This document shows, one piece after another, positions 23,853 through 63,003 of a stretch of 64,000 nt of DNA. The stretch lies in NCBI GenBank assembly GCA_034620365.1, contig JAQGEQ010000104.1, positions 1-64,000 on the forward strand, in the 5' to 3' direction. Both the position numbers and the translations under genes were made by a program. Under the pieces are notes generated by a model. The model did no database searches and had not been told where the DNA came from. It saw only the letters and a list, made by a program, of their open reading frames with translations. The DNA is from Pegea sp. RAD2-039 (lineage: Eukaryota; Chordata; Thaliacea; Salpida; Salpidae). Position 1 is the stretch's first letter. Each line of letters opens with the position of its first letter.

Positions 23853-23878
23853 TATTTTGGAATCGACTGAATGTCGAT
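23853..23878 (+). repeat. Family-C 3' end (C3), promoter lost
   Basis: ATTTTGGAA (Sm-like) is directly followed by TCGACTGAATGTCGA (5-bp stem). No CACAAAC core lies about 85-95 nt upstream, so this is a truncated or decayed unit. Confidence 0.4.
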
Positions 23879-24059
23879 GACAACTTTTACTAATTTCTAA
23901 ATATTTGAATAATAATGCATTTCATATCTCCTAGACAACAACTTTGATATGTTTTCTAAAATAAATAATTTCTATTATTGTGAATAATTTAGATGTTTCC
24001 CAAAACATCTGTATTAACAATTTTCTAATAAAAATTATAATTTTATCTTTTTACTCCTT

Positions 24060-24073
24060 GCGCCACTTAGCGG
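24060..24073 (+). other. Recurrent GC-rich motif GCGCCACTTAGCGG
   Basis: One of at least seven close variants in this AT-rich window. On the other strand it reads CCGCTAAGTGGCGC, which resembles CTCF-type binding consensus from insects and vertebrates. I infer a protein-binding or transposon-end role only as a possibility. Confidence 0.4.
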
Positions 24074-24562
24074 ATATCGTATTTTTGTTACAACAACAAA
24101 TCTTTGAAACGTAATTAGTATTTTATTGAACCAGTTTAACGAAATGTATAATTTGTAGATTGGTGCATGTTTTTTGCTACAAAGCAAATTATTAGTTTTT
24201 TTTTCGTTTTATTGTCAAACAATAATTTATTTCACTTTTTTTAGTAAATATTTTATAAACAGAACTAAATGGTTAAAAATGAAATTTCAAATTGACTAAT
24301 TATTTTATATAACATCAGAATTTATATAGAATTTAGTTACCATAATAAACATACTTTCTAATGTTAGCTGCAAATTTTCTTAACTTAAGTAAAATGTATC
24401 TCTTTAGTAACACTTTTCAATTGGCATTGTCTGAGATTTCAAACTAACTTAAAACAATTTGCTTTATTAAAAGTAAGAGAAGCTAATATGTTTTAGTATT
24501 ACATGCGGTAATTTTGTACACCGATTACATTGTACTTTCTAAAAAAATGTTTAACTCGTTTA

Positions 24563-24687
24563 GATTTCTAGCACCACAAACAATAGACTTAAAACATTCT
24601 TACATATTCCGATTTTATTCTCTTAAAAAAATTCTGCAATCGAAAGGTTTAAAATACTTATAATTTAGAAACTGCCAATAGCAGTTG
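24563..24687 (+). ncRNA. Sm-RNA-like unit, family F (F1)
   Basis: The core CACCACAAACAATAGACTT (CACAAAC 24,575-24,581) is followed 87 nt later by Sm-like AATTTAGA (24,662-24,669) and the hairpin AACTGCCAATAGCAGTT (24,670-24,686; 6-bp stem). A TATA-like ACATATTCC lies between. The core sequence recurs on the minus strand at 28,586 and 38,830. Confidence 0.4.
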
Positions 24688-24689
24688 AC

Positions 24690-25650
24690 AAATTTCCAAA
24701 CAAAATTGATGATTAGTTGAACAATTGTTGTTAATCGAATTGTTATTTCATTTAGGAAATCTAATTTAAAAATTATATACAAGGAGCTTACTAATAACCA
24801 AATTGTAAAGCTAATTATTTAAACTTTTCTTTTATCTAAAAAAATCATTTTAGGGCCCTTACTTTTTATGAGTTTTAATTATGATTGAAATTGTATATGA
24901 AACTAATAAAAGTTACTCCACATAAAAATACAGATATCGAGCTTACTTTGTTTTCAATAAAAAACAGCAATACAGATTTTTAACATAAGTTTTATAGTCT
25001 GTTTTTAATTTTACGTTTTATTTTTTTCTTTTGAATTTAAAAATCTTAATTTGAGTATAGAGGCCTTATAACTGACATCATTATGATATAAACAATTTAT
25101 AGAACTGTTGAAACAAATTTTATGAAGAAAAGCTTTTATATTTTATTAAAAAATATCTTCATATTTTTATATTTTTACATTAAGTTTTTTTCAGTAAATA
25201 ACAAGCAATAAGTCTAAACGAAAAAAACTAATAAAAACTAAATCAAACTTTTTTTATTTGAAAATTTAGTATCATTGAGCAAATATGTAATTACCATTTA
25301 CAGCAACCTTCATTGGTTAAATTACATAATTCAATTTGTTGATTAAGAGATTGCTTTAACTTTATTTCGATTAATAATTGCAGAAACAAATTATATGTTA
25401 TTATAAGCGTGTAATTTGTATTTTACTAATAATAAAAATTAATTTTGCTGCTGAACTCTCTATTTTACCTAGAATTCTGAGTAGAAATACTTATTTTGCT
25501 CAGTGAAAAGTTTTTATTCGTAACTATTAAACACAATTGTATTAAAAAGTTTACAACTATCAAGTAAACTGCTGAACTAAATTTTATGTATGTCAACTTT
25601 TTTAAAGAATGAAATCTTAAGATAATCAACTTACTTAATAAATGAAGTTA
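24690..25650. other. AT-rich stretch, nothing recognised
   Basis: No frames with family resemblance and no complete small-RNA-like unit. Confidence 0.4.
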
Positions 25651-25654
25651 TGTT

Positions 25655-25775
25655 GATAAGTATTTTATCACCAAATTTATAATCAGTTAAAAACCTTAAA
25701 TGCTGATTGAAATATTTTTTTACTTTTCATTTCTTATCACTTTGTTGTAATCTAGAGTTTTTGAATCAAGTTTAG
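25655..25775 (-). ncRNA. Sm-RNA-like unit, family A-type (A8)
   Basis: Minus strand: the core is decayed (GATTCAAAAACTCTAGATTAC, RC of 25,745-25,766) but the ACTCTAGATTAC flank is as in other family-A units. 85 nt on, AAATTTGG (25,671-25,678) and the hairpin GATAAAATACTTATC (25,655-25,669) follow. The stem differs from other A units but still pairs. Confidence 0.35.
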
Positions 25776-26800
25776 GAGAATATTGTTTATAATTTTATTG
25801 AACAAACTTTTGTTAAATTATAAAATTCATTTTTTTAAATTTCAAATAAATTGTGTATACGAAAATAACTCATCACACAAAAAATAAAAAATATATAATT
25901 AGTTTTAAAATTTAATTGTTTTTTTCAATTTGAAATATAAGTAAAAACACTAACTTTTTTATAACAAAAAGTTCCTCTTTGCAAAATAGGTTCTTAATGG
26001 TTCTCAATAGTTGGACACTTTTTCGACATCAACAATATTTAGCAACTTTTTTTTTTGATAAAGTTAATCAGATATTCTCTACAAGTTTCAGAAGATTTAA
26101 AGTTATGTCTTTGTTTGAAAAATTGAATTATTTTACTTGTAGTAATCTGTTTGTCCTGTTTTCAATAATTTGTATATGCTTTAGTAGGAAAAGGCGTTTT
26201 CATACAAATATCTCTTTTTTTAAAAAGACCAGAAATGGAGCTTAATTCACAAAAAATAAACTTATGTCGTTAAACTATTTTCAAAATTAAGAGAGCAATC
26301 CTTTAAGATTTCATCTAACAAATAACAGAATAATAATATAACATAATTTATTCAAATATAAAAACTTTTATTTTACACAATTAGTATTTCTATTTATATC
26401 TCAGATGAAATAATTAAGAAGCAACATTTCTATTTCTTTATTACTTTTTAATATCATTCAAACGAAATTATTAAACATCGGAGCAAGAAAACTATTCTCT
26501 CTTGCGCCTAGTAGCGGAAAAGGAAAATTTTGAAATATTTTTTTGTAAAGTTTTTTTTTAAACTCATTTCTACTAAACTATCCAAAGTAGAAAGTTTCTA
26601 ATCATCCATACTGAAAAACATATTTAAAAATTCTTTTTTAAAAATACTAAATTTGCTAAAACTCTTTTTTTCTATTTGTAAACATTCTGTCAATTTATCA
26701 GTTACATGTTTCCGTCAAAATAATAAATTTTCAACTTTAATTATTTTCATGTTGCTACTTGCAGAGAATTGAAACTCAAGGTAGTCTTGTTATTTACTTA
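25776..26800. other. AT-rich stretch with GCGCCTAGTAGCGG motif
   Basis: GCGCCTAGTAGCGGAAAAGG lies at 26,504-26,523 and shares its right half with copies at 36,536 and 45,318. The 88-codon frame at 25,979-26,245 is taken as chance. Confidence 0.4.
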
Positions 26801-26810
26801 ATCGATTTCT

Positions 26811-26932
26811 GTTGAAAGTATTTCAACTTCAAATTGGTTCATAGATTCAATATGCACAATAATCTAAGAACTTCCAGAACTTTTCGGTTATATGAACTAT
26901 GTTACAATCTAGAGTTTGTGGGATCAAGCTTA
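26811..26932 (-). ncRNA. Sm-RNA-like unit, family A (A1)
   Basis: Minus strand: upstream element CTTGATCCCACAAACTCTAG followed by ATTGTAAC (CACAAAC 26,914-26,920). An ATATAA-like string follows near 26,888-26,893. After 85 nt comes Sm-like AATTTGAA (26,828-26,835) and hairpin GTTGAAATACTTTCAAC (26,811-26,827; 7-bp stem). One of the best preserved family-A copies. Confidence 0.5.
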
Positions 26933-27267
26933 AACGAATTGGTTAATTTTTATTCCGTTTTTTTATGTTAAACTCTTTTTTGACAAAGAAAAAAAAGATA
27001 ATAGTTATTATTTGGTATTATCTATTAGTTTATTTAGTTCAAACATTTAATTTTGAAGTAGAGTTGACTCTATAGGTACTATTTTAGATCTATGATTCAA
27101 TTTCTTTCTGATCTTGATATTATTAAGTAATCTCATGAAAAAATTTTAATTTTTCAAATCTACAAAAATCAAAGTAATTATTTTACTGATAATTGTTTTA
27201 AATAGAGTCAAGATTATTAGAACAATAATATTTTCAATAACATTATCAGTTGATTAAATTACACCAA

Positions 27268-27392
27268 AAACTTAACGATACCACAAACATAAGATTGTAC
27301 GCAGATAATATATAACACTTTAGAATATCGATAATTTTTTTCCCGAGCCAATTTTTCCTAATATATTTTGCAAGATGGACTTTTGCATCTAA
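27268..27392 (+). ncRNA. Sm-RNA-like unit, family B (B1), weak 3' end
   Basis: Upstream element ACGATACCACAAACATAAGA (CACAAAC 27,282-27,288) with TATATAA at 27,309-27,315. The 3' part is worn: ATTTTGCA replaces the Sm-like string and the hairpin AGATGGACTTTTGCATCT has one mismatch. Confidence 0.35.
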
Positions 27393-27429
27393 TCATCAAA
27401 AACTGTTTTTTCATAAAAAGATCACACGA

Positions 27430-27565
27430 AAAACTCAAAGATACCTAAGATAAAAGTTAAAAGTTGTATAACCGTGTAGATAAAGATAAATTTAGTAATC
27501 ATCTCTGAAATGTTCACTGATAATAAATATATATGATTTACAAGATTTATTTTTCGAATTTTTTG
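27430..27565 (+). repeat. Decayed family-B unit with core deleted
   Basis: Reads AAAGATACCTAAGATAA: relative to GATACCACAAACATAAGAT the ACAAACA is precisely missing. A GTATAACCGTGTAG box follows. The same decayed form, with core AACAAAC, occurs inverted at 41,770-41,900. Confidence 0.4.
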
Positions 27566-27784
27566 ATAACTTAATGAACTTGAGTTGCTTGAAGTTATAG
27601 TTTGGAGTTGAAAAACATTTTATTAAAAATATACTTAGTGTATAATTTAATTAAAGTGAAATTCTATTATGTACAGATAATACGATAAAAATCATTTCGG
27701 TCAAAAAAAATTTGAAAAGGTTTTCTAGTTTTCAAATAATTACATAAAATTATTTAGGGTATCACTAAAATCTGTTTCATATGC

Positions 27785-27800
27785 AGTTTCATCTGAAACT
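27785..27800 (+). repeat. Conserved hairpin H, copy 1
   Basis: AGTTTCATCTGAAACT (7-bp stem, 2-nt loop) is preceded by TATCACTAAAA...TATGC. Further copies: 29,165-29,180, 39,868-39,883 and, inverted, 41,480-41,495. No Sm-like site is adjacent. Confidence 0.5.
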
Positions 27801-28501
27801 TTATTTCATAAAAATATAAGTAAATAATTTTAAAAATTATGACTATTATGAACATTAAATTTATTTAATTTAATAACTAAATAATTTATAATAGTATAAG
27901 AACTTATATGCAAAGTGAATTATTTAAAGGTAAAAAAATAAACTAATTATAGATTTTTCTTTTTAAAATTTTATAACCATAACAATTTATAACCCAAAGA
28001 TCACAATCTTGCCTAAATTTTTTTTAACTTTTATATTTTAATCTTGTTTTACCAAAACATTCAACTTTCTACGTCACAGAAAAATTTAATAATCATTTTT
28101 AATGTTTTTTGTCCTGTTAGTAACGATTTTAAAAAATTCAGAAACTTATGTTTTTACTTAATAAATCTTCATCTACAATTGTTATACTAATAGTTTATAA
28201 TTTAAACTTTAAAATAAGCTTTTCCAGCAAAACAATAAACATTAAATACTATTTTGCAAGAAAACCACATTAGAATATAATTTGGATGATGTTTTTCATT
28301 TTTTAAAATAGTTTTATAAATTTTGTACTAAATGATAAATTTTGGAAAAAGTTTATATCATACTAGCCAAAATAACCATTTTAACCTAAAATAGCTTAAA
28401 TAAATTTGTTTTTCTACTGTAGATTAAAAAAGGAGTCAAAATTAAAATATCTTTATTCATTTTTGTTAAAACTATTTTGTAAATTGAAATTATGTTTTTA
28501 A

Positions 28502-28605
28502 AAGTTTTTCATTGTTAAAAACTCATAAGAAAATTTAAAGGTTATTATTTATAAAATAAATATGTAAAAATGGTTAAAGTCTGTTGTTTGTGGTGCTACA
28601 AATCC
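28502..28605 (-). repeat. Family-F-like unit (F2), spacing shortened
   Basis: Minus strand: core GCACCACAAACAACAGACTT (CACAAAC 28,586-28,592), then after about 57 nt AAATTTTCTTATG and hairpin AGTTTTTAACAATGAAAAAC plus T (28,503-28,523; 7-bp stem). A further core copy, CACCATAAACAACAGACTT, lies near 38,828-38,846 (minus). Confidence 0.35.
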
Positions 28606-28799
28606 AAATAGTTAAAGGTTTTTAAACTAATTAAAAAATAAATAATTAAAATTGAATTAAAAATAATTATCAAAGAATTCATAAACATATTTTAACTTAT
28701 AAATATTTTTATAAGTAATCAAATATTTGATATACATAGTTTTATTTCAACATTGACAAAGAGAGCATTCATTATAAACAAAAATTACCATTAAAATTT

Positions 28800-28934
28800 G
28801 AATTTGATCCCACAAATTCTAGATTACCACAAAATAATAAATATTCAAAAGTAAATTAACATTACCATATCTACTTGCTGTAGTATTTATGACTTTCTAG
28901 ATAGTCAGTTTGGAATTGAAATACTTTTTCAACG
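28800..28934 (+). ncRNA. Sm-RNA-like unit, family A (A5)
   Basis: Upstream element TTTGATCCCACAAATTCTAG then ATTACC (core CACAAAT 28,811-28,817). About 97 nt on come a body stem TGACTTTCTAGATAGTCA (28,890-28,907), then GTTTGGA (28,908-28,914), then the hairpin TTGAAATACTTTTTCAA (28,916-28,932). Stem, Sm-like string and stem in this order is the spliceosomal-type 3' layout. Confidence 0.45.
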
Positions 28935-29341
28935 AAACTTTTATTTATAAAAAAAAAGAATAACTTAGTTAAGTCACTTGAGTTACTCTTTATACAAAAA
29001 ATTCAAGTAGTCTAGGTAAATGAAGTAAAAATAATTTTGATGAGAAATTTGTTTCATTTATTTAAAACTTTACTGATAATGTGATATAGTGTTTAAAAAA
29101 CTTTCTAACTTTCAATAAATTGAATAAAATTATTTACGGCATCACTAAAAACCGCCTTAAATGCAGTTTCAACTGAAATTTAATTTCACATAAATAAAAA
29201 TATACAATCTTAAAAATTATAACTATTATGAACTTTTTAATTAATAATTTTTAACAGAAAATATATAAAAATGTGTGTTAAAATAGTTATAAGAAAACAT
29301 AATAGTATTAAATTGTTTAAACTAATATTATATTAATAATA

Positions 29342-29367
29342 AATTGGAAGATGCACATTTGCATTTG
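29342..29367 (+). repeat. Family-B 3' end (B3), no promoter
   Basis: AATTGGAAGATGCACATTTG then CATTT: Sm-like string plus the family-B hairpin with an end mismatch. No core is found upstream. Confidence 0.4.
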
Positions 29368-30660
29368 TTGATCAAACAAGTATTTTTCCTAGAAAGCAAT
29401 AATAAAATTTTACATTTCTTGAATAAATAATGTAATTTCAAATTTATGAATTTTATCAAAGTATTTCGAAATTTAAATTAAAATCAGATTCAATAAATAT
29501 TTATTTTTGGTAACATAACAACTAATCAGGAACAAATTTAGTTGAATTTTTTGAATAACAAAATTTAGCATTCGAGAACTTAGTATTCCTTTCACTTTTT
29601 ATGATAATTCGAAATTTATTCATTCTACCCTAGTCAAACCCTTTTTACTAATCAATTTGTTTTCAACTCTATTTTGTTTTTGAATTGAACTGACTGATTG
29701 TGGTTCGCTATTTAAATTCATTACAGCTTTTTGTAATCGGGCGGACTTCAGTTGCCTTGTAGGCCACTAACAAGTCTCTTGTGATAAGTTACAAGTGACT
29801 TTGCTAGTTTCTGAGAAGCAGATATACTGAATTATAAAAACCAAATGTTTAGAACATTTGAATAGTATTACTTAGAATATGATGATTGGGGAAATATATG
29901 ATAACAATTTTGAACAAAGGTAGAAAAACATAAATATTTATTTAAATAAAATTTTATTATTACTCTGATTTAATATTTGCTTCTTATGTTTGCAATTAGA
30001 AAACAGGAAACTAGTTTAGAAGCAAGTTTGATTATGAGGAAGCTCATTTGACGTAGCGACGTTTCTTTCTAATTATATTTAAGGATTAGGTGATGATGTC
30101 AAAAGCACAACAATTGTAAACAAATTTAAGAAGAGAAATATACCCAAAAGGTTATAAACTTACTCAGCATCAACAAAACAAAATACGACATGAATTTTTA
30201 CAAAATATTTGAAAAAATGATTAAATGATTTAACTATAATAAAACAACCTTTTACCAAGACACGTAGCAAAACTTTCAGTAAAAGTTTAAAAATCTCAAA
30301 TTTATTTAACATATTTTACAATATTAAACAACTTGCTTAATTTTATTGTTATACAGTTAGAATGCTAGGAGTTTTTAAAATATAGCTTCACTAATTAAAT
30401 GTAGATAAAAATAAAGGTTATTATTTTCGATAATCACAATAATAAGTAAAATATATTGAAGAGGATGTTTCATTCACGGATACATTTAATTGATTAAATC
30501 AAATAATTTTGCTGTGTATAATAATGAAGTTTTGGCTTGATAGAATTACACTTTTAAATCACTAAAGTAAAAGATTATTCAAAAACGAAACAGAATCTAG
30601 TAAAAGTTAGTTTACGATTACAGACTAACACATTTTAAAATACTTTAATATTAGTAAATG
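29368..30660. other. AT-rich stretch, nothing recognised
   Basis: A slightly less AT-rich patch near 29,735-29,800 shows no coding frame. Its right end, 30,400-30,660, starts an inverted match to 40,310-40,600. Confidence 0.4.
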
Positions 30661-30664
30661 TTAC

Positions 30665-30790
30665 ATCGACATTTAGTCGACTTCAAATTAAATTTTTCAA
30701 AAAAATTGGTTTCCAAGACAATTAGATTTAGCGCTAAAAATTGCTTAATAAAAAGGATTTTTATTCTAGTGTTTGTGGGTTAAACACTGA
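30665..30790 (-). ncRNA. Sm-RNA-like unit, family C (C1)
   Basis: Minus strand: TTTAACCCACAAACACTAGA (CACAAAC 30,771-30,777); 88 nt on, AATTTGAAG (30,681-30,689) and the perfect hairpin TCGACTAAATGTCGA (30,666-30,680). The core itself sits in a small palindrome, AGTGTTTAACCCACAAACAC plus T. It is paired inversely with C2 at 40.2 kb. Confidence 0.5.
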
Positions 30791-31670: not shown

Positions 31671-31674
31671 ACGT

Positions 31675-31804
31675 AAAATTTAACGATACCACAAACATAA
31701 GATTGTTTAAACAAGTTATATAACAGTATAGATTTCAATAAAGCGTTTTTCATACCTGCATTCATTCTCCTAATGATTTATTTGGATGATGCACTTTTGC
31801 ATCT
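31675..31804 (+). ncRNA. Sm-RNA-like unit, family B (B2)
   Basis: AACGATACCACAAACATAAG (CACAAAC 31,690-31,696), TATATAA 31,717-31,723, ATTTGGA 31,780-31,786, and the hairpin GATGCACTTTTGCATC 31,788-31,803. Core-to-Sm distance 90 nt. The body between TATA and Sm-like site is unlike other B units. Confidence 0.5.
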
Positions 31805-33735: not shown

Positions 33736-33762
33736 TTAATGTGTAAAGTCGCCAAGTGATAA

Positions 33763-33905
33763 TTGTAAATTTAGAAAATTATCCAAATTGTTAAAACCTG
33801 TTTATCACTTCATATTAATACAATTTTATTTTTTTTCTGATAACGCAAATTCTTGATGTTTCTGCAAGAATTGAAAAACAACTTTCGTTTGTGGTATTGA
33901 TGATT
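33763..33905 (-). ncRNA. Sm-RNA-like unit, family G (G1)
   Basis: Minus strand: CATCAATACCACAAACGAAA (CACAAAC 33,887-33,893), no clear TATA, then after about 104 nt AATTTGGA (33,782-33,789) and a long-loop stem GATAATT...AATTATC. Inverted duplicate of G2 at 45,984. Confidence 0.4.
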
Positions 33906-34072
33906 TTTTTTTACAAAAAAAAACTCTTTTTCTAAAAAAATGTTGTGTTAAATGAATAAATTAAAGATTACGAAAAATCAAATTACACTTGTACAAGGAG
34001 CTTATAAAGGTCACGAAATCTCGAAACATCACGAAAGCTCATTTTTTCCATGGAAAAATTTATTTGATATAG

Positions 34073-34203
34073 AGATGCAAAATTGCATCGTCCAAATTTA
34101 GATACTACGCATCAATTATTTGATACCAAAACACTCTTTCCTCGTAATCTATACGGTTATATATTATCTTCATTCAATCTTATGTTTGTGGTATCAGTAA
34201 ATT
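34073..34203 (-). ncRNA. Sm-RNA-like unit, family B (B4)
   Basis: Minus strand: CTGATACCACAAACATAAGA (CACAAAC 34,184-34,190), TATATAA (34,157-34,163), body stem ATCAAATAATTGAT (34,111-34,124), ATTTGGA (34,091-34,097), hairpin GATGCAATTTTGCATC (34,074-34,089, perfect). Core-to-Sm 93 nt. Confidence 0.5.
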
Positions 34204-35392: not shown

Positions 35393-35511
35393 TTGATCCT
35401 ATACACTTCAGATTGCAACAACGTTTATAAGAAATAAAAAGTAAAATAAAACTCAATCATTCGTAAAGGATTGCAAAGTTTTTTAATTTGGAGCTAAAGT
35501 ACTTTACAACT
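35393..35511 (+). ncRNA. Sm-RNA-like unit, family A variant (A9a)
   Basis: CTTGATCCTATACACTTCAG then ATTGCAAC (core ATACACTT replaces CACAAAC), TTTATAAG 35,424-35,431, body stem CAATCATTCGTAAAGGATTG (35,454-35,473; one mismatch), AATTTGGAG 35,485-35,493, weak terminal stem GCTAAAGTACTTTACAAC. Confidence 0.4.
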
Positions 35512-35642
35512 AAACTTTAAATAATAAAAAAGTTAATTATAGTTAATATTAGTTAAAAACACGATATTAATGTTATATATAACAGTATCTTTATAATATT
35601 AATATCAACAATAACTTTATCGATTGAATAAAGCCATCGAAA

Positions 35643-35772
35643 AATTTACCGATACCACAAACATAAGAATGAATGAAGATAGTATATAACCGTAAAGCTT
35701 ATAAAGAAGTTATATCATTTTATTTCTTATCTGGATAACAATACTAATTTGGAAGATGCAGTTTTGCATTTG
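35643..35772 (+). ncRNA. Sm-RNA-like unit, family B (B5)
   Basis: ACCGATACCACAAACATAAG (CACAAAC 35,656-35,662), TATATAA 35,683-35,689, body stem TTATCTGGATAA, AATTTGGA 35,746-35,753, hairpin AGATGCAGTTTTGCATTT (35,754-35,771). Core-to-Sm 90 nt. Confidence 0.5.
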
Positions 35773-36822: not shown

Positions 36823-36956
36823 AAAATTTACCGATACCACAAACATAAGATTGAATGAAAATAATATATAACCGTAAAGCTTACGGAAATATGAAATCGT
36901 TTTATCTCGTAATTTGAAATTAAGATAATAATTTGGAAGATGCAATTTTGTATCTG
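36823..36956 (+). ncRNA. Sm-RNA-like unit, family B (B6), best preserved
   Basis: ACCGATACCACAAACATAAG (CACAAAC 36,837-36,843), TATATAA 36,865-36,871, then CCGTAAAGCTTACGG (6-bp palindromic stem), body stem TTATCT-cg-TAATT/AATTA-AGATAA (36,902-36,928; 11 bp with a 2-nt bulge), AATTTGGA 36,930-36,937, terminal hairpin AGATGCAATTTTGTATCT (36,938-36,955; one G-T pair). If the start is about 25 nt after TATA, the RNA would be about 60-70 nt with nearly all of it in the two stems around the Sm-like site. Confidence 0.55.
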
Positions 36957-37866: not shown

Positions 37867-37999
37867 GTTGAAAAGTATTTCAACTCAAAATTATGTAAAC
37901 GATTTGTTATCAGGAAGAAAGGTATGAAAGATATACTTTTTTATTATTTATAAACGTTGTTTTTTATGTTGCCATCTAGAGTTTGTAGGATCAATCTAT
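37867..37999 (-). ncRNA. Sm-RNA-like unit, family A (A2)
   Basis: Minus strand: ATTGATCCTACAAACTCTAG (TACAAAC 37,981-37,987), AATTTTGA (37,885-37,892) after 95 nt, hairpin GTTGAAATACTTTTCAAC (37,867-37,884; 7-bp stem). Divergent from A3, which starts 180 bp to the right. Confidence 0.5.
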
Positions 38000-38253: not shown

Positions 38254-38387
38254 AATTTACCGATACCACAAACGTAAGATTGAATTAAGATAATATATAA
38301 CCGTAAAGCTTAGGGAGAAGGCCGGTTTAACTGATGAATTAATAGTCTTTTTATTGACTTATTTTGGAAGATGCACTTTCGCATCTG
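38254..38387 (+). ncRNA. Sm-RNA-like unit, family B (B7)
   Basis: ACCGATACCACAAACGTAAG (CACAAAC 38,267-38,273), TATATAA 38,294-38,300, a body stem AATAGTC...GACTTATT (38,341-38,364), ATTTTGGA 38,361-38,368, hairpin AGATGCACTTTCGCATCT (38,369-38,386): the loop side changed but the stem is kept. Core-to-Sm 94 nt. Confidence 0.55.
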
Positions 38388-39557: not shown

Positions 39558-39672
39558 GAACTTGATAACACAAACTCTAGATAGTGACAAAGTAATAAAG
39601 TATAAAAAACTAACTTAGGATTACTCGGAAGTTTTGAATAATAAATTTTTTGAGTTGAAATATTTTTCAACG
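39558..39672 (+). ncRNA. Sm-RNA-like unit, family A (A4)
   Basis: CTTGATAACACAAACTCTAG (CACAAAC 39,569-39,575), TATAAAAA 39,601-39,608, then a textbook Sm-like AATTTTTTGAG (39,644-39,654) and hairpin GTTGAAATATTTTTCAAC (39,654-39,671; 7-bp stem, TATT loop), then GAAATTTT. Core-to-Sm 75 nt, the shortest. Confidence 0.5.
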
Positions 39673-40185: not shown

Positions 40186-40310
40186 ATCAGTGTTTAACCC
40201 ACAAACACTAGAATCACAAGACTTTTTATTAAGTATTTTTAGGAGTATCTACTATTGCTTGCAAAGTCGGTAATGCTAGATCTTTAATTTGAAGTCGACT
40301 AAATGTCGAT
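40186..40310 (+). ncRNA. Sm-RNA-like unit, family C (C2)
   Basis: TTTAACCCACAAACACTAGA (CACAAAC 40,200-40,206), TATA-like TTTTTATTAAG, AATTTGAAG 40,286-40,294 after 86 nt, hairpin TCGACTAAATGTCGA 40,295-40,309. Inverted partner of C1. Confidence 0.5.
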
Positions 40311-43724: not shown

Positions 43725-43851
43725 CTTTTGATGAAGCCACAAACTTAAGTTCTTATGCAGATTATATATAACATTTAAAAATGCTTTTCGACTGAAATAC
43801 CAAATCCAGTATTTATAAATGCAATATTTGGAAGATGCACTTTTGCATCTG
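43725..43851 (+). ncRNA. Sm-RNA-like unit, family B (B9)
   Basis: GATGAAGCCACAAACTTAAG (CACAAAC 43,738-43,744), TATATAA 43,765-43,771, body stem AAATACCAAATCCAGTATTT (43,795-43,814; 6 bp), ATTTGGA 43,826-43,832, perfect hairpin AGATGCACTTTTGCATCT (43,833-43,850). Core-to-Sm 88 nt. The body has no primary similarity to B6, yet a stem sits in the same place. Confidence 0.55.
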
Positions 43852-45691: not shown

Positions 45692-45823
45692 AATTTACTG
45701 ACACCACAAACATAAGATTGAATAAAGATATTATATAACCGCATAGAATACGGGGAAATAGTGTGTTAGTATCAATTAATTGATGCGTAGTATTTAAATT
45801 TGGACAGTGCACTTTTGCATCTT
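45692..45823 (+). ncRNA. Sm-RNA-like unit, family B (B10)
   Basis: CTGACACCACAAACATAAGA (CACAAAC 45,705-45,711), TATATAA 45,732-45,738, body palindrome ATCAATTAATTGAT (45,771-45,784), AATTTGGA 45,797-45,804, terminal CAGTGCACTTTTGCATCT with mismatches. Inverted duplicate of B4. Confidence 0.45.
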
Positions 45824-45983
45824 GATATCAAATAAATTTTACATAGACAAAATAAGGTTTCGTGTTCTTTTGAGATTTCTTGACATTTATAGGCTCCTTG
45901 TACAAGCGTAATTTAAATTTTTTAATATTATTTTTTTCATTTAAAACAACAATTTTTTAGAAAAAGAGTTTTTTTTGTACAAA

Positions 45984-46132
45984 ATTCATCAATACCACAA
46001 ACGAAAATTGTTTTTCAATTCTTGCAGAAACATCAAGATTTTGCGTTTTCAGAAAAAAAAGAAAATTGTATTAATATGAAGTGATGAACAGGTTTTAACA
46101 ATTTGGATAATTTTCTAAATTTACAATTATCA
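45984..46132 (+). ncRNA. Sm-RNA-like unit, family G (G2)
   Basis: CATCAATACCACAAACGAAA (CACAAAC 45,996-46,002), AATTTGGA 46,100-46,107, stem GATAATT...AATTATC (7 bp, 12-nt loop; 46,106-46,131). Lies 290 nt downstream of B10's core, as G1 follows B4. Confidence 0.4.
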
Positions 46133-51011: not shown

Positions 51012-51128
51012 CAACTGATTCCGTCAGTTTCAAAAATAAAATGATAGCTAGCAAGCTCATTAGTTTAAATCAACAATGTTACTTTATATAACCAACTACT
51101 CATCTTGTGCTTGTGGGTTGAACAATTT
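51012..51128 (-). ncRNA. Sm-RNA-like unit, family D (D1)
   Basis: Minus strand: TTCAACCCACAAGCACAAGA (CACAAGC 51,109-51,115), TATATAA (51,084-51,090), ATTTTTGA (51,030-51,037) after 78 nt, hairpin AACTGACGGAATCAGTT (51,013-51,029; 6-bp stem). The loop differs from D2-D4 while the stem is identical. Confidence 0.5.
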
Positions 51129-51779: not shown

Positions 51780-52270
51780 TATATATTAACTGTTTGTGTT
51801 TACAAAAGATTTGTAAAATTTTAAAAACTTATTACTAAAATAAGAATAATAAAATAAATAAATCTAGTGCTAATAATAAATACAATTCAAATATTAATTG
51901 AATAATATTCCAACTGCTAGAAAGAAACAGTTGAATTTGAAAACAAATTTTTGCCAGAGAAAATACCATGTTGAAAAATTTTCAACACTCCAAATTGTAA
52001 ATGCCTTACGGCGGTATCTTTGGTGTAAAAGGTCGTACAGAATAAGTATTCTAATCATGACTTCTTACTCTAATCTTCGTGGGTTGTAGAGTTTTCACAG
52101 ACAACCTGTTTTGAATTTATTAAAATCTAAATTTATTTTCGTATTTAATCAAAAGTGTTAACCTACGAAAAATTTTAACTAAGACATAAATTTGTTGAAA
52201 CATTTTTTTTCGACAGTTAATCTCTGTGATTAAACAATTTTATTTTTTTGATTTAAACTTCCATAAAAAT
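51780..52270. repeat. Direct duplication (partner 55,745-56,265)
   Basis: Collinear runs (TATATTAACTGTTTGTGT, TCTAGTGCTAATAATAA, the whole E unit, TTCGTATTTAATCAAAAGTG) place E1 and E2 in equivalent contexts about 4 kb apart. Confidence 0.75.
51968..52092 (-). ncRNA. Sm-RNA-like unit, family E (E1)
   Basis: Minus strand: CTACAACCCACGAAGATTAG (core CACGAAG 52,075-52,081); the body CTGTACGACCTTTTACACCA then AAGATACC leads to the mini-hairpin GCCGTAAGGC (52,003-52,012; GTAA loop, GNRA type), ATTTAC, AATTTGGAG (51,988-51,996), and the hairpin TGTTGAAAATTTTTCAACA (51,969-51,987; 7-bp stem). Core-to-Sm 85 nt. In this family the body is conserved and clearly richer in G+C than its surroundings. Confidence 0.55.
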
Positions 52271-53011: not shown

Positions 53012-53141
53012 TTGAAATGAACTCACAAACACAAGGCAAACACGTTGTTATATAAAGTATCTAATTTATTACGATCCTATCAGTCTATCAACAAAATAGA
53101 TAATGGTCAGAGAGAATTTTGAAAACTGATACTGTCAGTTG
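53012..53141 (+). ncRNA. Sm-RNA-like unit, family D (D2)
   Basis: TGAACTCACAAACACAAGGC (CACAAAC 53,024-53,030), TATATAA 53,049-53,055, body stem TCTATCAACAAAATAGA (53,084-53,100), GAATTTTGA 53,114-53,122 after 91 nt, hairpin AACTGATACTGTCAGTT 53,124-53,140 (6-bp stem). Confidence 0.5.
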
Positions 53142-55160: not shown

Positions 55161-55162
55161 GT

Positions 55163-55293
55163 TTTAAATGAGCTCACAAACACAAAGAAAGTAAGTTGTC
55201 ATATAATGCATTCAATTTTATACCAGATTAACAAACTGCTTCTTGTATAGCTTTAAATATTTGTTTAAAATTGAAAACTGATACTGTCAGTTG
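55163..55293 (+). ncRNA. Sm-RNA-like unit, family D (D4)
   Basis: TGAGCTCACAAACACAAAGA (CACAAAC 55,175-55,181), CATATAAT 55,200-55,207, possible body stem TATAC...GTATA, AAAATTGAA (55,267-55,275) and hairpin AACTGATACTGTCAGTT (55,276-55,292). The Sm-like string is shorter in T than usual. Confidence 0.45.
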
Positions 55294-55937
55294 CATTTAA
55301 CGAAAAGATCACCGATATATAACGATATGAAGAATGCTCTGGACTTGTATATTTCTTTCATATTTTGTGTCTTTCTTTTGCTTGTTAAACTCTGAATGAT
55401 TCTGTCGTAAGTAAGCAAATATGTAGATTGAGATTTTAAATATTTACAAATTGTTTCTTTTTTCGTTGTATTGATGCCATCATGCTACTAGTAGTATAAA
55501 GAAGTAATCCTTTTTGTTTTCACTTAACGCTACCATAATAACTTTTATGATATACAAAGCTTTTTCCAAAAGTCTTGTCAAAAATAAAGTTATTTGTTTT
55601 TATTTGAACGTCGACATTTTAATCATAAATATTTTAGTCTCATTTAAGATTTTAAATAATGTAGTATTCAAGCATTTGAGATTTTTACTTTTTTTAACAG
55701 AATTAGTTTACTTAAATGTTTTAATAGATTTAGATTGAATTTACAAAACTTTTTCGATCTATATTAACTGTTTGTGTATAAAAAAGAAATGTAAAATTTT
55801 AAAAACGTGTTACTGCAAATAAAATTAATGAATCTAGTGCTAATAATAATTACAATTCAAACAATAACTGAATATTATTTCAACTGTTATACGGTAGCAG
55901 TTGCTTTTCATAACAATTTTTTGTTAATGTAAACTGC

Positions 55938-56063
55938 ATGTTGAAAAATGTTCAACACTCCAAATTGTAAATGCCTTTCGGCGGTATTTCTGGTGTGGAA
56001 GGTCGAACAGAATCATCATAATAATCATAAATATTTACTCTAATGTTTGTGGGTTGTAAACAT
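55938..56063 (-). ncRNA. Sm-RNA-like unit, family E (E2)
   Basis: Minus strand: TTACAACCCACAAACATTAG (CACAAAC 56,045-56,051), TATTTAT box, body CTGTTCGACCTTCCACACCA then GAAATACC, mini-hairpin GCCGAAAGGC (55,973-55,982; GAAA tetraloop), AATTTGGAG (55,958-55,966), hairpin TGTTGAACATTTTTCAACA (55,939-55,957; 7-bp stem). Core-to-Sm 85 nt. Compared with E1, the tetraloop changes GTAA to GAAA (both GNRA) and the terminal loop changes while both stems stay intact. Confidence 0.55.
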
Positions 56064-56282
56064 TTCGCAAACAACTTGTTTTGATTTCGTTAAAATCTAA
56101 ACTTATTTTCGTATTTAATCAAAAGTGTTATCGTAAGAAGAATTTAAACTAAAAAATAAATTTGTTGAAACATATTTTTTCAACAGTTATTTTCTGTGAT
56201 TAAACTATTTTGTTTTTGTTGATTTAAACTTACATTAAAATATGAACTAAACGACAAAAAACGCAGAAAAAAAATGGATTTG

Positions 56283-56903
56283 TTAATCAAGTCTATTTTC
56301 TTCTTGTTGACGACGTTTTTCCTGTTGTTGACGATGTTTTTCTTCTTGTTGACGACGTTTTTCTTCTTGTTGAAGGCGTTTTTCTTCTTGTAATCGAAGA
56401 TTTTCTTTTTCTTGTTGACGAAGCATCATTTCTCTTTGGTGGTAATTTGCTGACGCTTGTTGCATTCGATGATATTCAGCTAGACGCTTTAATCTATCCT
56501 GTTCTTCCCTTTCTCGTTGAAGTCTTTCTTGCTGTTCCTGCTTACGAAGTCTATTTTCCTCTTGTTGGCGACGTTTTTCTTCTTCTTCTTGACGAAGTAT
56601 CATTTCTCTTTGGTGGTAATCTGCTGACGCTTGTTGCATTCGCTGGTATTCAGATAGACGCTTTATTCTCTCCTGTTCCTCTCTTTCTCGTTGAAGTCTT
56701 TCTTGCTGTTGCTGCTTACGAAGTCTATTTTCGTCTTGTTGACGACGTTTTTCTTCTTGTTGACGACGTTTTTCTTCTTGTTGATGGCGTTTTTCTTCTT
56801 GTCGATGCATCTTTTCTTGCTCACGTTGAACACGTTTTTCTTCCTGTTGTCGACGTTTTTTTCCTTGTTGTCGCTTATAGATTTCACTTGTAGAATTCCA
56901 CAT
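56283..56903 (-). CDS. Charged coiled-coil protein, function unknown
   Basis: 206 codons from ATG (56,901-56,903) to TAA, no introns needed. After a short start (MWNSTSEIYK) nearly all residues are Q, E, R and K in heptad-friendly order (EEKRRQQ repeats), predicting one long helical coiled coil; no signal peptide or membrane segment. Residues 58-105 (ENRLRKQQQQERLQREREEQ... RMQQASADYHQREM) recur at 116-163, offset 58 residues (174 nt), with conservative changes only (E/D, I/L, S/A, Q/H, D/N, I/M). That suggests the frame has been under selection since the duplication. The region is richer in G+C than its surroundings. Upstream on the minus strand a TTTATAATAGG box lies about 80 nt away and a TTTTTTGACAG acceptor-like string about 50 nt away. 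Trichohyalin- and caldesmon-like proteins look similar, but composition alone cannot establish homology. Confidence 0.65.
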   Translation of the reverse strand: MWNSTSEIYKRQQGKKRRQQEEKRVQREQEKMHRQEEKRHQQEEKRRQQEEKRRQQDENRLRKQQQQERLQREREEQERIKRLSEYQRMQQASADYHQREMILRQEEEEKRRQQEENRLRKQEQQERLQREREEQDRLKRLAEYHRMQQASANYHQREMMLRQQEKENLRLQEEKRLQQEEKRRQQEEKHRQQQEKRRQQEENRLD

Positions 56904-56999
56904 TATGATAAAATCAAAAAGTATTCTAAGCTTATTCCCTTAAGTCCTGTCAAAAAATTTACGTGAAATTTTGTACAGAAAAACCTATTATAAAATTGA

Positions 57000-59900
57000 T
57001 GATTTTTTTTATTTGAATAAGATTTACAAATCAAAAATGATGTCACACTAAAAGTAAAAGAAGAACGATAATTAAAAATTATACACTATTTATTTTTACT
57101 ACTACTTTTGCCATAAATATTTTCTTTGCTTGAACTGTTTTTTAAGTTAAAGTAAAGAATTTGTTTACACAAATCTGCCAACAGATAATTTATTAATAAT
57201 TTTTTTTTTTTATGTTATTAAATATCTAGGTTTCAAAATTTTCTAGTGATTTCAAACGGTCAAAAAATAAATGAGTCTTTAAAAACAAATCATTTTAAAA
57301 ACGTTTATAAATAATTATAGCAATTATAGAAAAGTATTTAACACTTAATAGTTTATTAACGAAAGTTTCAAGTAAAAGATTTTAACAAAATTATAAAAAA
57401 ATATTTTAATAAAAGTCTACTAATCCAATAATAATTTACTTTGATTTATATTAACTATGATAACTTAGATATAATTTTAAAAAAATAAGATAATATTTAA
57501 ATAATTTATTTTCTAAAAAGTAATTTAAAATTTGATCCAACCAAAAACAGAGTAACAAGACAATTAGACATCAAAAACTATTTAGGCCTATACTCTAAAA
57601 AACTTCCTTTGTGAGATATTCACCCAGGACTAGTCGCTATCAGATGTAAAATCAAATGGCCCTACACTGCAGGTTATTTTATAAAATATATTGAGGGTTT
57701 CCAAACATATTTTACAAATTTATATTTTTAGTTTAATTTAAAAAATCTATACACTCTTATTAAAAAAATCAATTAATTCTTTGCTAATTAATTATTAATG
57801 AAAAATTAAAAAAAAAATTCTAGTTTTTTTTCTAAGGAGATTTTTTAATACCTAATAAACATATAAGCTAATTTATTCCAAAGGTAGCTCTATTCGTATG
57901 AGAAAGTTATAACTTGCTCTAACTGCTGCTTATGATTCTTAGTTTTAAACCTATAACTAAAGGTAAAATCAAAAGTTATTTTTCAACTGTCTTTAATTTC
58001 CATTTATTTTCTAAAATCATTATTTAAAGTCATAAGTAATAGACTTCATGACTTTTCTTCTTACTACACTATAACATTGTTAATATTTTCAACTTTAAAA
58101 CATATTTATATTTTACAAAATGATGATTTTACAGAAATATATAAGTTTTAATAAATTAATAACTATTCTTATGACTTAAAATATTGTTTCTGTACTAGTT
58201 CTTTTATGCTCTTAGTTATTTATTAGTTGAAAATATCTTTATTATTCTATATATATTTTTTTATTTTAAAGAATTTTCGATAAAATTCTTTTATCTTTTT
58301 TTTCGGTCAAATTGTTTTGAATCTTTACATATTCTTAGAGTTAAACCAATTTTCCAAATAACAAAATTACTTGATTTAAAAAATAAATGTAAAAACGTTT
58401 TATAAAAGTGTTTTATTTCTTATCTTAATATTTTATAAATGTATTTAATTTATTTATTATATTGATTTGTTTATCTTATTATTTTTAATTATTATACAAT
58501 AATTATACAAAATCATTTTAATTATTTTGATGATTGATAAACAGGACAACAACTTAAAAAATATTGGTAATGATTTTATACTTCAATTTTCTTCAGCAAT
58601 CGAAATAACTAAATGTTTTCCTGTAGCTAAGAGTTTATTAAAACTAGTTTATCTAAAAACTGATAATATAAAATTTGTTTGTTTTAATTTTATCAGCTGA
58701 TCAATTAGTTTTTCTTTTTTGGCTGCATAAATGAAACGTCTTAATAAATTTTTGTCTTTTATAAAGTTTTGACAATTTATTGATAGAAATTTAAAAAGCT
58801 TTTAGATAATTTTTCGTATTAAGAATGCATCCAATTGCGATATGAAGACACTTAGCATTAAAAATAATAAATGGGAAGTTTTCGCAGCAGATCACTCAAA
58901 CCAGCGATCTGTTTTCTGCAAGCAGTTAAAGGAAAATGATAAAATATGATATTAAGGAAGAGAAAAATTTTTGGTAACAAATATTTCATGCTTTTCTTGT
59001 TTATTTAAAGTTTGTACAACTAGCTTTATGTAAGAAGCAAACAAAGTTAAATAAGCCTCAAAATTTCATGTGAAAACTGTTGTCATTTAAGTTTATATGA
59101 CAGTTTTATGTGTCATTGCTGTTTACCGCTAATGTTAATTGAAAAAAGAAAATTAAATCACAATTAGAAGTTATATACATTTTGCGAAAGCAGATTGTTT
59201 AAATTGAAAGTACTATATCACTAAAAGTATATATATAGATTCATTTTAGATAAAGTTTTCAATCTAAAATGTCATATGGCGAAGATGAATTATCAAATGA
59301 TTTACTATCAGGAAGCGATGACGTCATATAGAGCAAAATGTTTAACTTTTATTTTTACGCCTACTGTAAATTTAAATAGATCAATTATTACAAAACTATA
59401 AATTTTTAATTAGCTTTGTACTAATCTTTCCTAAGTTGATTTTAGTAATTACTAATTATAGGTTATTGGTAATAATTATATAATACTTATTATACAAATA
59501 AATGTTCAGCTGAGTTCAATGAAGTAGAAAAGATTGTTTGCATTAATTTTGTTTTAAGTCTTTAACAAACAACGCTATGACTAAATTTATCTTCAACAAA
59601 AATAATTTGTAAGGTAGATTTGATGAACAGCCATCACTTTTTAGATATGAAAAATAAAGAACATTACTAAAATTGAATAAATTAATTGATAAATGAATAT
59701 TACAATAAACTAATATAACTGAAATAACATAGATATTTGTTTTTGTTATCCATAAAGTAAATAGAAAACAATTTTAAATACAATAATTTATTATGTTGTC
59801 AATGATTTTAAGGAATTTTTGTATGAATGGTTCAGTGAATTTAAAAAAAACAATTGTGACAAAAAATTTAATAAGTGAACCTACGTTGTTTTGCGTTCCA

Positions 59901-60380
59901 TAATCTTTCAAATCCTACAAATCGTATGAGGAAAAAAAATTGTTTGACAGCTGTTAAAACAATTAAAATTTTATGTCAACAACTAAAAAAACATTTCCGA
60001 GAATACATTCAAACGTCTTGTAAAGAAGTTTTTAATTTTCACTAAAATGTTTGAATATGATTTAAATAAATTGAACAAAGAAATTTGCATTCTACAAAAC
60101 TTTTAGGGGATTTTATCAACGTGAAAAAATAAATAGAGTTTAATTAAAATACAAACTTTTAGTTATAAGCTATTCGTTATGATCTTCTAGTAAATTATAT
60201 CTTTATAAACTAAAATGTTGATGTTGGATAAACAATATTTGTAATATTAGTGATAAAACAGAAAAAAATGCATCTCATAGCATTGGGAATTTTAGAAACT
60301 AAAAATGTTAGTAGATATTGGAAAAGCATAGTTAATAAACAAAATATCCTTTTAATTGAAAGCAGTGAAGGAAATAATTT
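57000..60380. other. AT-rich stretch, no convincing gene
   Basis: The only hint is an ATG at 59,269 behind a TATATATATAG box (about 59,229-59,239) starting a 20-codon acidic frame (MSYGEDELSNDLLSGSDDVI) ended by TAG and including a TGACGTCA. It might be a first exon but lacks a good donor. Confidence 0.3.
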
Positions 60381-60664
60381 CTGAGTCCTACAGTACTCTC
60401 ATTTTTAAAAACAAAAAGTCACATAGCTTTTGATTTAATTTTTTATTGTCAGTACGATTGATCTTTTTAATTTTAATCATCGAAGTAGAATAAATCAAAT
60501 TCTAAATTAAATAAAACTTGGTAAGAAAAATTGAACTAATTTTGTTTGTATTATAATAAACTTATAAGAACTTTTCGTATCAACTTTAAAATCAAACTTT
60601 CTATTTGAAAAATATTTGTCAACAAAATGCTTATCAATAAAATTATAAAATTAGTTTCATTTGA

Positions 60665-60785
60665 ACTTGATCCCATACACTTCAGATTGCAACAACGTTT
60701 ATAAGAAATGAAAAGTAAAATAAAACTCAATCTTTCGTAAAGGATTGCAAAGTTTTAAAATTTGTAGCTAAATTACTTTAAAACG
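60665..60785 (+). ncRNA. Sm-RNA-like unit, family A variant (A9d)
   Basis: CTTGATCCCATACACTTCAG, TTTATAAG, body stem CAATCTTTCGTAAAGGATTG (60,728-60,747), AATTTGTAG near 60,759, terminal stem weak. Confidence 0.35.
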
Positions 60786-61118
60786 AAACTTTAAATTATA
60801 AATAAGTTTAATAACTTGAGTTATTATTTATCACAAAATATGTTTGTAAACATGTTATTGGTAATATGACAGATTTTTTACTAATTGAAAACTTTTCATT
60901 CAACAAAACTTGTATTTTGCTTTTTATTATAATTTAATCGAAATCATTATATATCATCACGGCAATTCTGTTTTTTTTTTCTATCATGAGATGAAATATC
61001 AAAAAATATGATTTTGCTTCTAAAGTTTTAAAAAATTATATTTTATACAGTTTAAAATATATTTAATTTTTATTGTTTGATTCATTGCAAAAATTATAAT
61101 TTGTTGTTTTGACTCTTT

Positions 61119-61132
61119 GCGCCTTCTAGCGG
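61119..61132 (+). other. Recurrent GC-rich motif GCGCCTTCTAGCGG
   Basis: Same context as 46,819; one substitution in the centre. Confidence 0.45.
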
Positions 61133-61390
61133 ATAGATTAAGTTTGCTACAGTAATAAATAGCTGAAACTTAAATATTCTTTTTAGTCAATTGCTTTAAA
61201 CTATCTTGAGGATTAAAAATAGACCTGCTTTTTAGTAAATAATCTTCAAAAAGTAGGTTATTCACCAGAATGTTTCATAATCTTAAATTAAGAAAAAGTA
61301 TTTTAGTAAATATTTTACATACGAGTTGTTTACAGTAGATGTAAAAAATATTTCGCAAGGCGAACAATTAGGGTTAATCTAAAAAAAAAC

Positions 61391-62540
61391 TTACGTTTTA
61401 GGACTGGTGTAACTTTAATTACCTAATTTTTTATTTTAACTTATTTTATAATTTATTAATTCTATATAAAAACGTATATTTAAAAAATTAGTCATTGTGT
61501 CAAACCATAATAGTATAATAATAATGTCTCATAAAAGATTATCTATGCTTGTATTTAGATATTACCAGATACAAAAAAATACAAAATTTACTGCTTAATA
61601 TTTAAAAATCGAAATAACTATTCTACATGGTTTTCTTTAATTAGACTCTAAAAGTTAAGTAAAATATTAATTTTGCTAAACTCTATATGTATTTTTTCAT
61701 CAATTAACCGTTTAGAATAAACTTTGAAAAAATTTAATCAAAATTGTTTATTGTTGATATAGATGTATATTGAAATACATATTTTTCTATAAATTTTAGT
61801 TCTTAGAGTAGATTCAAGAAACTTTTGTTTTAAAATATTATTCGATATCAGTGGTTAGGGAATTTGATCATTTTAAAATCATTTTCTAGTTACTATTTAA
61901 ATAATGATAAGAGAATCACAATCTGATAAATATCTTTTTTCGGTCGCAACTGAATTCTCCTTAAAAAGTTTTTTTGTTACTTTTATGCATCTCTTATATC
62001 TATTTCAAAGTGCTGTATGAACTTCAAAAAGATTTCTAGTTTTAAATTTAGTTTATATATTGAAAATAATTTGTTTAAATATATTTCGGTTTTAATGTTA
62101 AAATCAACTTAAATAAAATACTTATTTAACAGATTGATTTTTAAAACAATGATTTTTTAAAACATTTAATTGAGAATAAATAATGTTTTAATCAAATTTT
62201 TAAAAATAATTTTATTAGTACGTCTTGATTACTTAAAATAGTTTTGTAATTCATATTACTTCGTATATTCATTAGTATATTTCATATTACATTAAATTTA
62301 ACTTTCTGCAAATGAATTGTCAACTTTAAAAATTTAGAATTTTTACAATCGAGAAACGAAACAATAATTTTGATTTTTTATCTGATGAAAGAATATTTGT
62401 AACTTTCTTGATATTAGTCAGCTGTGTTTAGCTTTCCAGAGGATTAAAAATAGAATTGTCGAAATGATATTTAATGATTTCATGATATAAAAAATACGGA
62501 TATTTGTTAATGTTTTTTGTTTTCTTATTCTGAATTCTAA
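61391..62540. other. AT-rich stretch, nothing recognised
   Basis: No coding or RNA-like signal. Confidence 0.4.
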
Positions 62541-62660
62541 ATAGAAATACAAAAAATTTAATTTCCAGGAAACATAAAATCTTTAAATATAATCGAGATT
62601 TTTCTACTTTTCATTTCTCATAAGTTTAATGCAATTTAGTGTTTGTAGGATTAAATATGA
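62540..62660 (-). repeat. Possible family-A unit, weak
   Basis: Minus strand: TTTAATCCTACAAACACTAA then ATTGCA (TACAAAC 62,641-62,647) and AAATTTTTTG 87 nt on, but the following stem is only 4 bp. Confidence 0.3.
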
Positions 62661-62882
62661 AAGCATTATTTTTTTGTTATTTTAAGTAAAAACCTTTTGG
62701 TGACAAATAATTCACTTTTTATCAAGTGTTAAAAAATTTTCATTTTGTAAACATTCTGTAACAATATTTAATAATATGTTTATAACATCGGAATACATTT
62801 TTCACCTAATTTATTTTTATCTTATCATTTGCATAAACCGGAAGCTCAAGTTATTGAACTTATTTACTAATTGATTATTTTC

Positions 62883-63003
62883 GTTGAAAAGTATTTCAAC
62901 TCCAAAATGGTATATACAACAACAGTTGAGTACACTTTATAGTTTTTTTTTAATATCCTTATTTATTTCTTTGTCGTAATCTACAGTTTGTGGCATCAGT
63001 TTA
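62883..63003 (-). ncRNA. Sm-RNA-like unit, family A (A12)
   Basis: Minus strand: CTGATGCCACAAACTGTAGA then TTACGAC (CACAAAC 62,986-62,992), AAATAAATAAGG box, ATTTTGGA (62,901-62,908) after 84 nt, hairpin GTTGAAATACTTTTCAAC (62,883-62,900; 7-bp stem, loop TACT). Well preserved and 20 kb from the nearest family-A copy. Confidence 0.5.

Follow-up and report, generated by a model that had tools for sequence, protein, structure and literature searches.

The first 64,000 bases of contig JAQGEQ010000104.1 of Pegea sp. RAD2-039 (C274, positions 1-64000, in an assembly of 105.7 Mb and 387 contigs), referred to here as the window, have a G+C content of 24% and contain many copies of a short unit in which a conserved upstream element is followed by an Sm-like motif and, directly after it, by a terminal hairpin. 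We consider it probable that these units belong to a large, diversifying family of RNA polymerase II (Pol II) Sm-class RNA genes with a 5' recognition segment, a family that would still be duplicating and decaying. The parts of this reading differ in strength: the units very probably constitute an Sm-class gene family, and the proposal that their 5' segment is a selected recognition element appears to us to be finely balanced. An earlier prediction made from the letters of the window (the original prediction) had described such units between positions 23853 and 63003; a new point, absent from that prediction, is that the 5' segment often diverges fast.

Architecture of the units

The main sample comprised 240,242 bases, made up of the window and 18 stretches taken from contigs rich in the 17-mer CCACAAACATAAGATTG, and, with stretches selected in this way, unit densities in it cannot be read as genome averages. 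In the window itself, sites resembling the proximal sequence element (PSE) were identified with a weight matrix at a cut-off of at least 9 bits, which was trained on 85 units, 20 of them from the window, and is therefore partly circular. Units were called with a refined caller that demands a hairpin of at least 6 bp.

The results of our pattern searches showed that CCACAAACN{75,105}AATTTGGA has 7 matches in the window where 0.01 are expected, and 202 matches genome-wide compared to 3 in the reversed control. The layout proposed in the original prediction was confirmed; it is found on either strand and with hairpin families that are unrelated to each other. The main sample contained 112 PSEs, 76 of which had an Sm-like motif 74-104 nucleotides downstream. 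An Sm-like motif with an adjoining hairpin of at least 6 bp was found at the right spacing for 64 of the 112 PSEs, compared to 3 of 448 shifted windows. A hairpin adjoined 162 of the 2084 Sm-like motifs of the 240 kb; the frequency was 64/87 for motifs at the correct spacing from a PSE and 98/1997 elsewhere. Conversely, a PSE was present at the expected spacing for 66 of the 76 Sm-hairpins of named families and at 17 of 446 shifted positions, so that the outcome named in the original prediction as refuting it, hairpins equally frequent with and without the element, was not observed. This association was seen in the GATGCA (12/13), GTTGAA (33/34), AACTGA (10/13), CCCGT (3/3) and AACTGC (4/4) families and was weakest in the GTCGAC family (4/9).

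The refined caller identified 85 units in the sequence examined, with an exact core in 53, one mismatch in 26 and two mismatches in 6. The distance from the core to the Sm-like motif was 76-102 nucleotides, in agreement with the 75-105 nucleotides predicted, and fell between 82 and 93 nucleotides in 68 of the 85 units. With a predicted start about 57 nucleotides after the core, the predicted RNAs are 56-72 nucleotides long (5-95% range; median 62, including four bases past the hairpin) and begin with a 5' segment that is variable and measures about 26-42 nucleotides. The 5' segments of the 85 units formed 55 clusters at 75% identity and were mostly unstructured, since their folding gave a mean z of -0.3 and a median of 0.04, with z below -2 in just 7 of the 85 units. 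Nine stem types were found among the hairpins, and pairing was kept in each. Rfam was searched with the window at gathering level and at E values up to 1 and with six further loci at E values up to 0.5, and no match was obtained, in line with the original prediction, whose author knew of no described family that fitted.

The upstream element of the units and of the snRNA genes

The CCACAAAC core is the genome's own small nuclear RNA (snRNA) PSE, as found on the U1, U2, U5 and U6 genes, and the Sm-class layout with a PSE proposed originally is supported by this shared element. The exact 17-mer CCACAAACATAAGATTG had 86 matches genome-wide and none in the control. A search of the assembly with U2 gave 19 matches, and the exact core was located 56-57 nucleotides upstream of the U2 start in 12 of the 15 distinct upstream stretches with an intact U2 5' end; among the remaining three, one carried CCGCAAAC at the place of the core and two were divergent and had no core. 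Two divergent U2-like copies without a PSE, L025 and L027 (C15), are perhaps U2 pseudogenes or variants. Searches with U1, U6 and U5 gave 19, 15 and 15 matches, and the upstream sequence was read in 3, 7 and 7 copies, respectively. CCCGCAAAYACAAAACTT was present 56 nucleotides upstream of the U1 start in all three copies, and CCCACAAATNYCAAA was present in all seven U5 copies, 54-55 nucleotides upstream of the first base of the model, while five of the U6 copies carried TAACAAACACTAAAC, one carried CTACAAACTCTAAAC and one divergent copy had neither. Compact clusters mixing U2, U5 and U6 genes on both strands were observed on G000:C32 and C39.

A TATA-like box was present in 83 of the 85 units, with peaks at +28 (43 units) and +24 (17 units) and none at +29 to +32. 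The corresponding positions in the U genes, each taken from one sequence, were +28 for U2 and U5, +24 for U1 and +31 for U6. The spacing in the units is therefore like that of U1, U2 and U5 and unlike that of U6, which points to Pol II, and transcription of the units by RNA polymerase III (Pol III) found no support on this ground. The T runs within some Sm sites would likewise halt Pol III.

Divergence and retention of the 5' segment

We compared paralogous units chosen on their distal flanks alone (identity of at least 0.70 from -250 to -60 upstream and of at least 0.65 downstream of the hairpin), which gave 39 pairs from 54 units and a subset of 24 non-overlapping pairs, with six 35-nucleotide segments as controls. 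Over the 39 pairs, the median identity of the 5' segment (+57 to the Sm site) was 0.69, compared to 0.86-0.91 for the controls, 0.91 for the middle of the promoter and 0.96 for the Sm site and hairpin. In 19 pairs out of 39 the 5' segment was less conserved than the flanks at p<0.01, while this was so for the controls in 0-3 pairs and for the promoter middle in 2; the Sm-hairpin was significantly above the flanks in 11 pairs and below them in none. In the 24 non-overlapping pairs, the median identity of the 5' segment was 0.83 and it was significantly low in 7, compared to 0.86-0.93 and 0-2 for the controls, and the Sm-hairpin exceeded the flanks significantly in 6 pairs and fell below them in none. 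A paired test on an earlier set of 24 non-overlapping pairs, which included one misplaced pair, gave p=0.0018 for the lower identity of the 5' segments and p=2e-5 for the higher identity of the hairpins. The pattern can be followed in single pairs: L028_5972 and L038_6415 are near-identical to about +55, have 18 ungapped matches out of 29 up to the Sm site and are near-identical again thereafter, and two units of C188 have a common promoter and hairpin with differing 5' segments of 31 and 42 nucleotides.

A second set consisted of 51 sequences chosen among the matches listed in genome searches, mostly from other contigs and with near-duplicates removed. It gave 88 pairs with a promoter identity of at least 0.9, in 47 of which the identity of the early 5' segment was below 0.7; this set is supportive only, because the promoters are themselves constrained.

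Other 5' segments were retained. For the unit at 36837, a 31-nucleotide stretch of the 5' segment was matched 24 times genome-wide with at most 3 mismatches, 13 times exactly; among the PSE cores listed, one could be placed 56-57 nucleotides before 18 of the 24 copies, and the other 6 are on unit-bearing contigs. Under the same limit, for the unit at 56052 the 5' segment had 29 matches, 10 of them exact, and 29 nucleotides of that of the unit at 40199 had 8 matches, 2 of them exact. The 5' segments of the unit at 43737 and of L034_7623 are identical over 32/32 positions, while their flanks are 86% identical. That the 5' segment is kept in some subfamilies and fast-changing in others suggests that it is the working part. 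Swapping of cassettes among hairpin families was rejected, since all 51 pairs of 5' segments with an identity of at least 0.72 lay within one hairpin family.

Genome-wide extent

The stricter pattern CCACAAACNNNAGAN{58,88}ATTTKGA had 279 genome-wide matches compared to 1 in the reversed control; these are matches and not genes, and among the matches listed 5 of 100 have their core in common with another. In the sequence examined this pattern gave 25 distinct starts compared to 78 units found by the refined caller, which extrapolates to about 800 units genome-wide, provided that recall is alike elsewhere. From the 279 strict matches, the family is probably several hundred units in size. Among the matches listed, one group of contigs comprised C64/C98/C104/C109/C136/C261/C267/C273/C274/C275/C286/C287, further ones were C92/C96/C134 and an array on C188, and a one-strand, head-to-tail array of more than 20 units belonging to a family of its own was located on G000:C22 (259-368 kb). 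The layout of the C22 array is unlike the dispersed pattern of the window.

Proposed mechanism

Under the reading of the units as Pol II Sm-class RNA genes, SNAPc and Pol II would produce a capped RNA of about 55-70 nucleotides, an Sm ring would assemble on the Sm-like site, and the hairpin would set the 3' end to give a stable small ribonucleoprotein (RNP). The promoter and the RNP scaffold would be the constant parts, and the 5' segment, to judge from its evolution, would be the working part that base-pairs with target RNAs, in the way that U1 and U7 pair with theirs through their 5' ends. A subfamily with a fixed target would retain its 5' segment, while other subfamilies would diverge theirs rapidly. 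A more far-reaching version, in which an animal would have several hundred small nuclear RNP (snRNP) guide RNAs with a constant Sm scaffold and a 5' segment under diversifying selection against changing targets, is tentative and in our judgment somewhat unlikely; equally tentatively, the targets of such a repertoire might be mobile elements or fast-evolving gene families, which would make it an snRNA-based counterpart to the repertoires of PIWI-interacting RNAs (piRNAs). Sm-class RNAs are normally few and ancient, with a conserved working 5' end. If our reading is correct, the snRNP machinery would be put to a new use in the units, with the promoter and the Sm scaffold kept and the 5' part often outpacing the neighbouring DNA, and this raises the question of which targets drive the change.

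Several of our results weigh against this reading. The 5' segment was not significantly low in 17 of the 24 non-overlapping pairs, so that its divergence is not universal, and identity in the second set drops from about +44, some 10 nucleotides upstream of the predicted start, which indicates that the boundary of divergence is not precisely at the start site. The figures for hairpin conservation are skewed upward because calling demanded a hairpin of at least 6 bp, and the PSE-like sites without intact units suggest that the family may be partly dead. A genome-wide search for near-perfect targets (at most 3 mismatches) of three 5' segments gave the 24, 29 and 8 matches described above, none of them off unit-bearing contigs. 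Pairing of the 5' segments with the major snRNAs was at the level of shuffled sequences or slightly higher for U2 (8.66 versus 8.54), U5 (8.14 versus 7.99) and U6 (7.46 versus 7.50). With U1, the mean longest complementary run of the 55 non-redundant segments was 8.24 nucleotides compared to 7.95 in shuffles; this excess is small; 1 of 40 dinucleotide shuffles was equally high, and the longer runs were scattered along U1.

Alternative explanations

The units could instead be copies of a DNA repeat, either mobile or duplicating, with an incidental snRNA promoter and Sm-hairpin; most copies would then be pseudogenes and the 5' segment would have no function. The high copy number, the clustering of units on particular contigs, the homology of the flanks over a few hundred bases around the units (in a lax alignment) and the 13 PSE-like sites between 23853 and 63003 that lack an intact unit are all compatible with such a repeat. 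A dead repeat would decay evenly, however, and the uneven conservation of the units counts against it: compared to the distal flanks, conservation is often higher in the Sm-hairpin and often lower in the 5' segment, the nine stem types retain their pairing, and some 5' segments are exact across many copies. We regard this explanation as unlikely. The original prediction of a dispersed multigene set that includes decayed copies agrees with what was found.

Two other explanations assign a different product to the units. As piRNA- or small interfering RNA-like genes, comparable to the type I 21U-RNAs of Caenorhabditis elegans, they would use snRNA-type promoters to make short precursors from which the 5' part is excised and loaded onto Argonaute. 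A conserved Sm-hairpin would be pointless if the precursor were trimmed, some segments recur exactly in a number of copies, the three segments searched had no near-perfect match off unit-bearing contigs, and the bases near the predicted start (T in 44 of 85 units at +60, A in 36 of 85 at +57) gave no sharp 5' U signal. Points of similarity are the promoters linked to SNAPc, the gene clusters and the varied products of that system, described in PMC11822377. We judge this identity to be quite improbable. The units could also be diverse spliced-leader RNAs, whose 5' segment would be a leader exon free to evolve with only its splice donor constrained. Spliced-leader RNAs share with the units a PSE, an Sm site and a 3' hairpin, and some of them are similarly short. 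The units differ in having no splice-donor signal: GT was present in 72 of the 85 segments compared to 73.9 in shuffles, donor-like motifs numbered 33 compared to 28.6, and 13 of the 85 segments had no GT at all. This candidate was rejected in the absence of a splice-donor excess and is highly improbable, and a special kinship with spliced-leader RNAs, which the original prediction had listed among the RNA classes of this layout, was not supported. A bdelloid rotifer spliced leader, searched for with at most 3 mismatches, had 0 matches.

Units in the window

The automatic caller found 20 units in the window, and inspection by eye, which tolerated long loops, a single weakened pair and weak Sm sites, found 24, of which 22 lie within 23853-63003 and 2 outside, together with 2 degenerate units. 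The estimate of about 30 units in the original prediction is thus reached if relics are counted but is too high for units proper. With the PSE weight matrix, 41 sites were obtained over the whole window, including 36 within 23853-63003, whereas three shuffled versions of the window gave 3, 6 and 7; the 13 sites of this range without an intact unit include some chance matches and some that are relic-like.

Both units beyond the earlier range have individual features placed: a GTTGAA-type unit at 6116..6234 (+; PSE 6116, predicted start 6173, Sm 6210, hairpin 6218-6234) and an ATCGAC-type unit at 8509..8625 (-; weak PSE 8625, Sm 8533, hairpin 8525-8509). Units of the GATGCA type were found at 31689..31803 (+), 34074..34191 (-), 35655..35770 (+), 36837..36954 (+; 5' segment multi-copy genome-wide), 38266..38385 (+), 43737..43849 (+; the unit sharing its 5' segment with L034_7623) and 45704..45821 (+; one weakened pair), and a degenerate one, with an intact PSE and a decayed Sm site and hairpin, at 27281..27389 (+). 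Further GTTGAA-type units were located at 26811..26921 (-; predicted start 26864), 37867..37988 (-), 39568..39671 (+; short 5' segment) and 62883..62993 (-), with a degenerate one at 28810..28933 (+), and TGTTGAA-type units at 51970..52082 (-) and 55940..56052 (-), the latter with a possible GCC-GAAA-GGC hairpin in its 5' segment. The GTCGAC type was represented at 30665..30778 (-) and 40199..40310 (+; 5' segment recurring genome-wide), the AACTGA type at 51013..51116 (-; short 5' segment), 53023..53140 (+) and 55174..55292 (+; weak Sm site), the AACTGC type at 24574..24686 (+; weak Sm site ATTTAG, hairpin 24670-24686) and the TGATAA type at 25654..25764 (-; weak PSE).

GATAATT-type units were found at 33758..33894 (-), with a 26-nucleotide hairpin element, and at 45995..46131 (+), with a PSE below the 9-bit limit, as partners of the GATGCA-type units at 34191 and 45704, respectively. 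This two-gene module, with its units about 290-300 bp apart, is present twice, at 33758-34191 (-) and 45704-46131 (+), which indicates that units duplicate in pairs too. The PSE-like sites at 35399, 35949, 44700 and 60673 (+) have a weak core followed by a common CTTCAGATTG or TTTCAGATTG and perhaps represent one more decayed or variant family.

The other features of the window were labelled from translations of open reading frames judged by eye, with no domain search. Tandem C2H2 zinc-finger frames with HTGEKPF linkers are located at 13473-14279 (+) and at about 18000-18300, and they yield false PSE matches because their antisense strand repeatedly holds CCACAAAC. Fragmented frames resembling a retrotransposon without long terminal repeats, with endonuclease- and reverse-transcriptase-like parts, occupy 18735-22385 (-), have a G+C content of about 36% and have relatives in L031 and L032. 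The zinc-finger-like and reverse-transcriptase-like frames point to a probable animal source. A repetitive, coiled-coil-like frame rich in glutamine, arginine and glutamate lies at 56246-56939, and another copy is present in L041.

Comparison with known systems

The units have in common with the U1, U2 and U5 genes of the same genome a PSE located 54-57 nucleotides from the start and the spacing of the TATA-like box, and an Sm-like site is expected in those genes. They differ in being much shorter, in lacking the U-RNA bodies, in numbering probably several hundred loci and in having a 5' segment that is often unconserved. U7 snRNA is about 60 nucleotides long and consists of a 5' recognition segment, an Sm site and a terminal hairpin; it is a single family directed at a histone target, and its Sm site is a special one. 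The units resemble it in length, 5' segment, Sm-like site and hairpin, and identity with U7 lacked a model match, as Rfam gave none in the window and six further loci.

We know of no Sm-hairpin in the 21U genes of C. elegans. These type I piRNA genes have the Ruby motif CTGTTTCA and 21-nucleotide products with a 5' U, and they are like our units in being short, clustered genes with SNAPc-linked promoters and a variable product, according to PMC11822377. The SmY RNAs of nematodes have two stem-loops flanking an Sm site, the first of which is conserved, and are, according to PMC11229312, like the units in being short RNAs with an Sm site (predicted in the units) encoded by a gene family, which is small for SmY; the 5' part of the units differs in being variable and mostly unstructured. 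SmY identity was not supported, as no conserved first stem-loop (mean z -0.3; 7 of 85 below -2) and no Rfam match were found, and the same holds for a special kinship with SmY, another class that the original prediction had listed. A search for the nematode cuticle collagen N domain gave no match, but the control search was silent too.

The class I RNAs of Dictyostelium have a PSE-like element, are 40-65 nucleotides long and have a variable part between fixed parts, with a conserved stem joining the 5' and 3' ends and a conserved motif. Compared to these RNAs, the units vary at the 5' end itself and carry a fixed Sm-hairpin instead.

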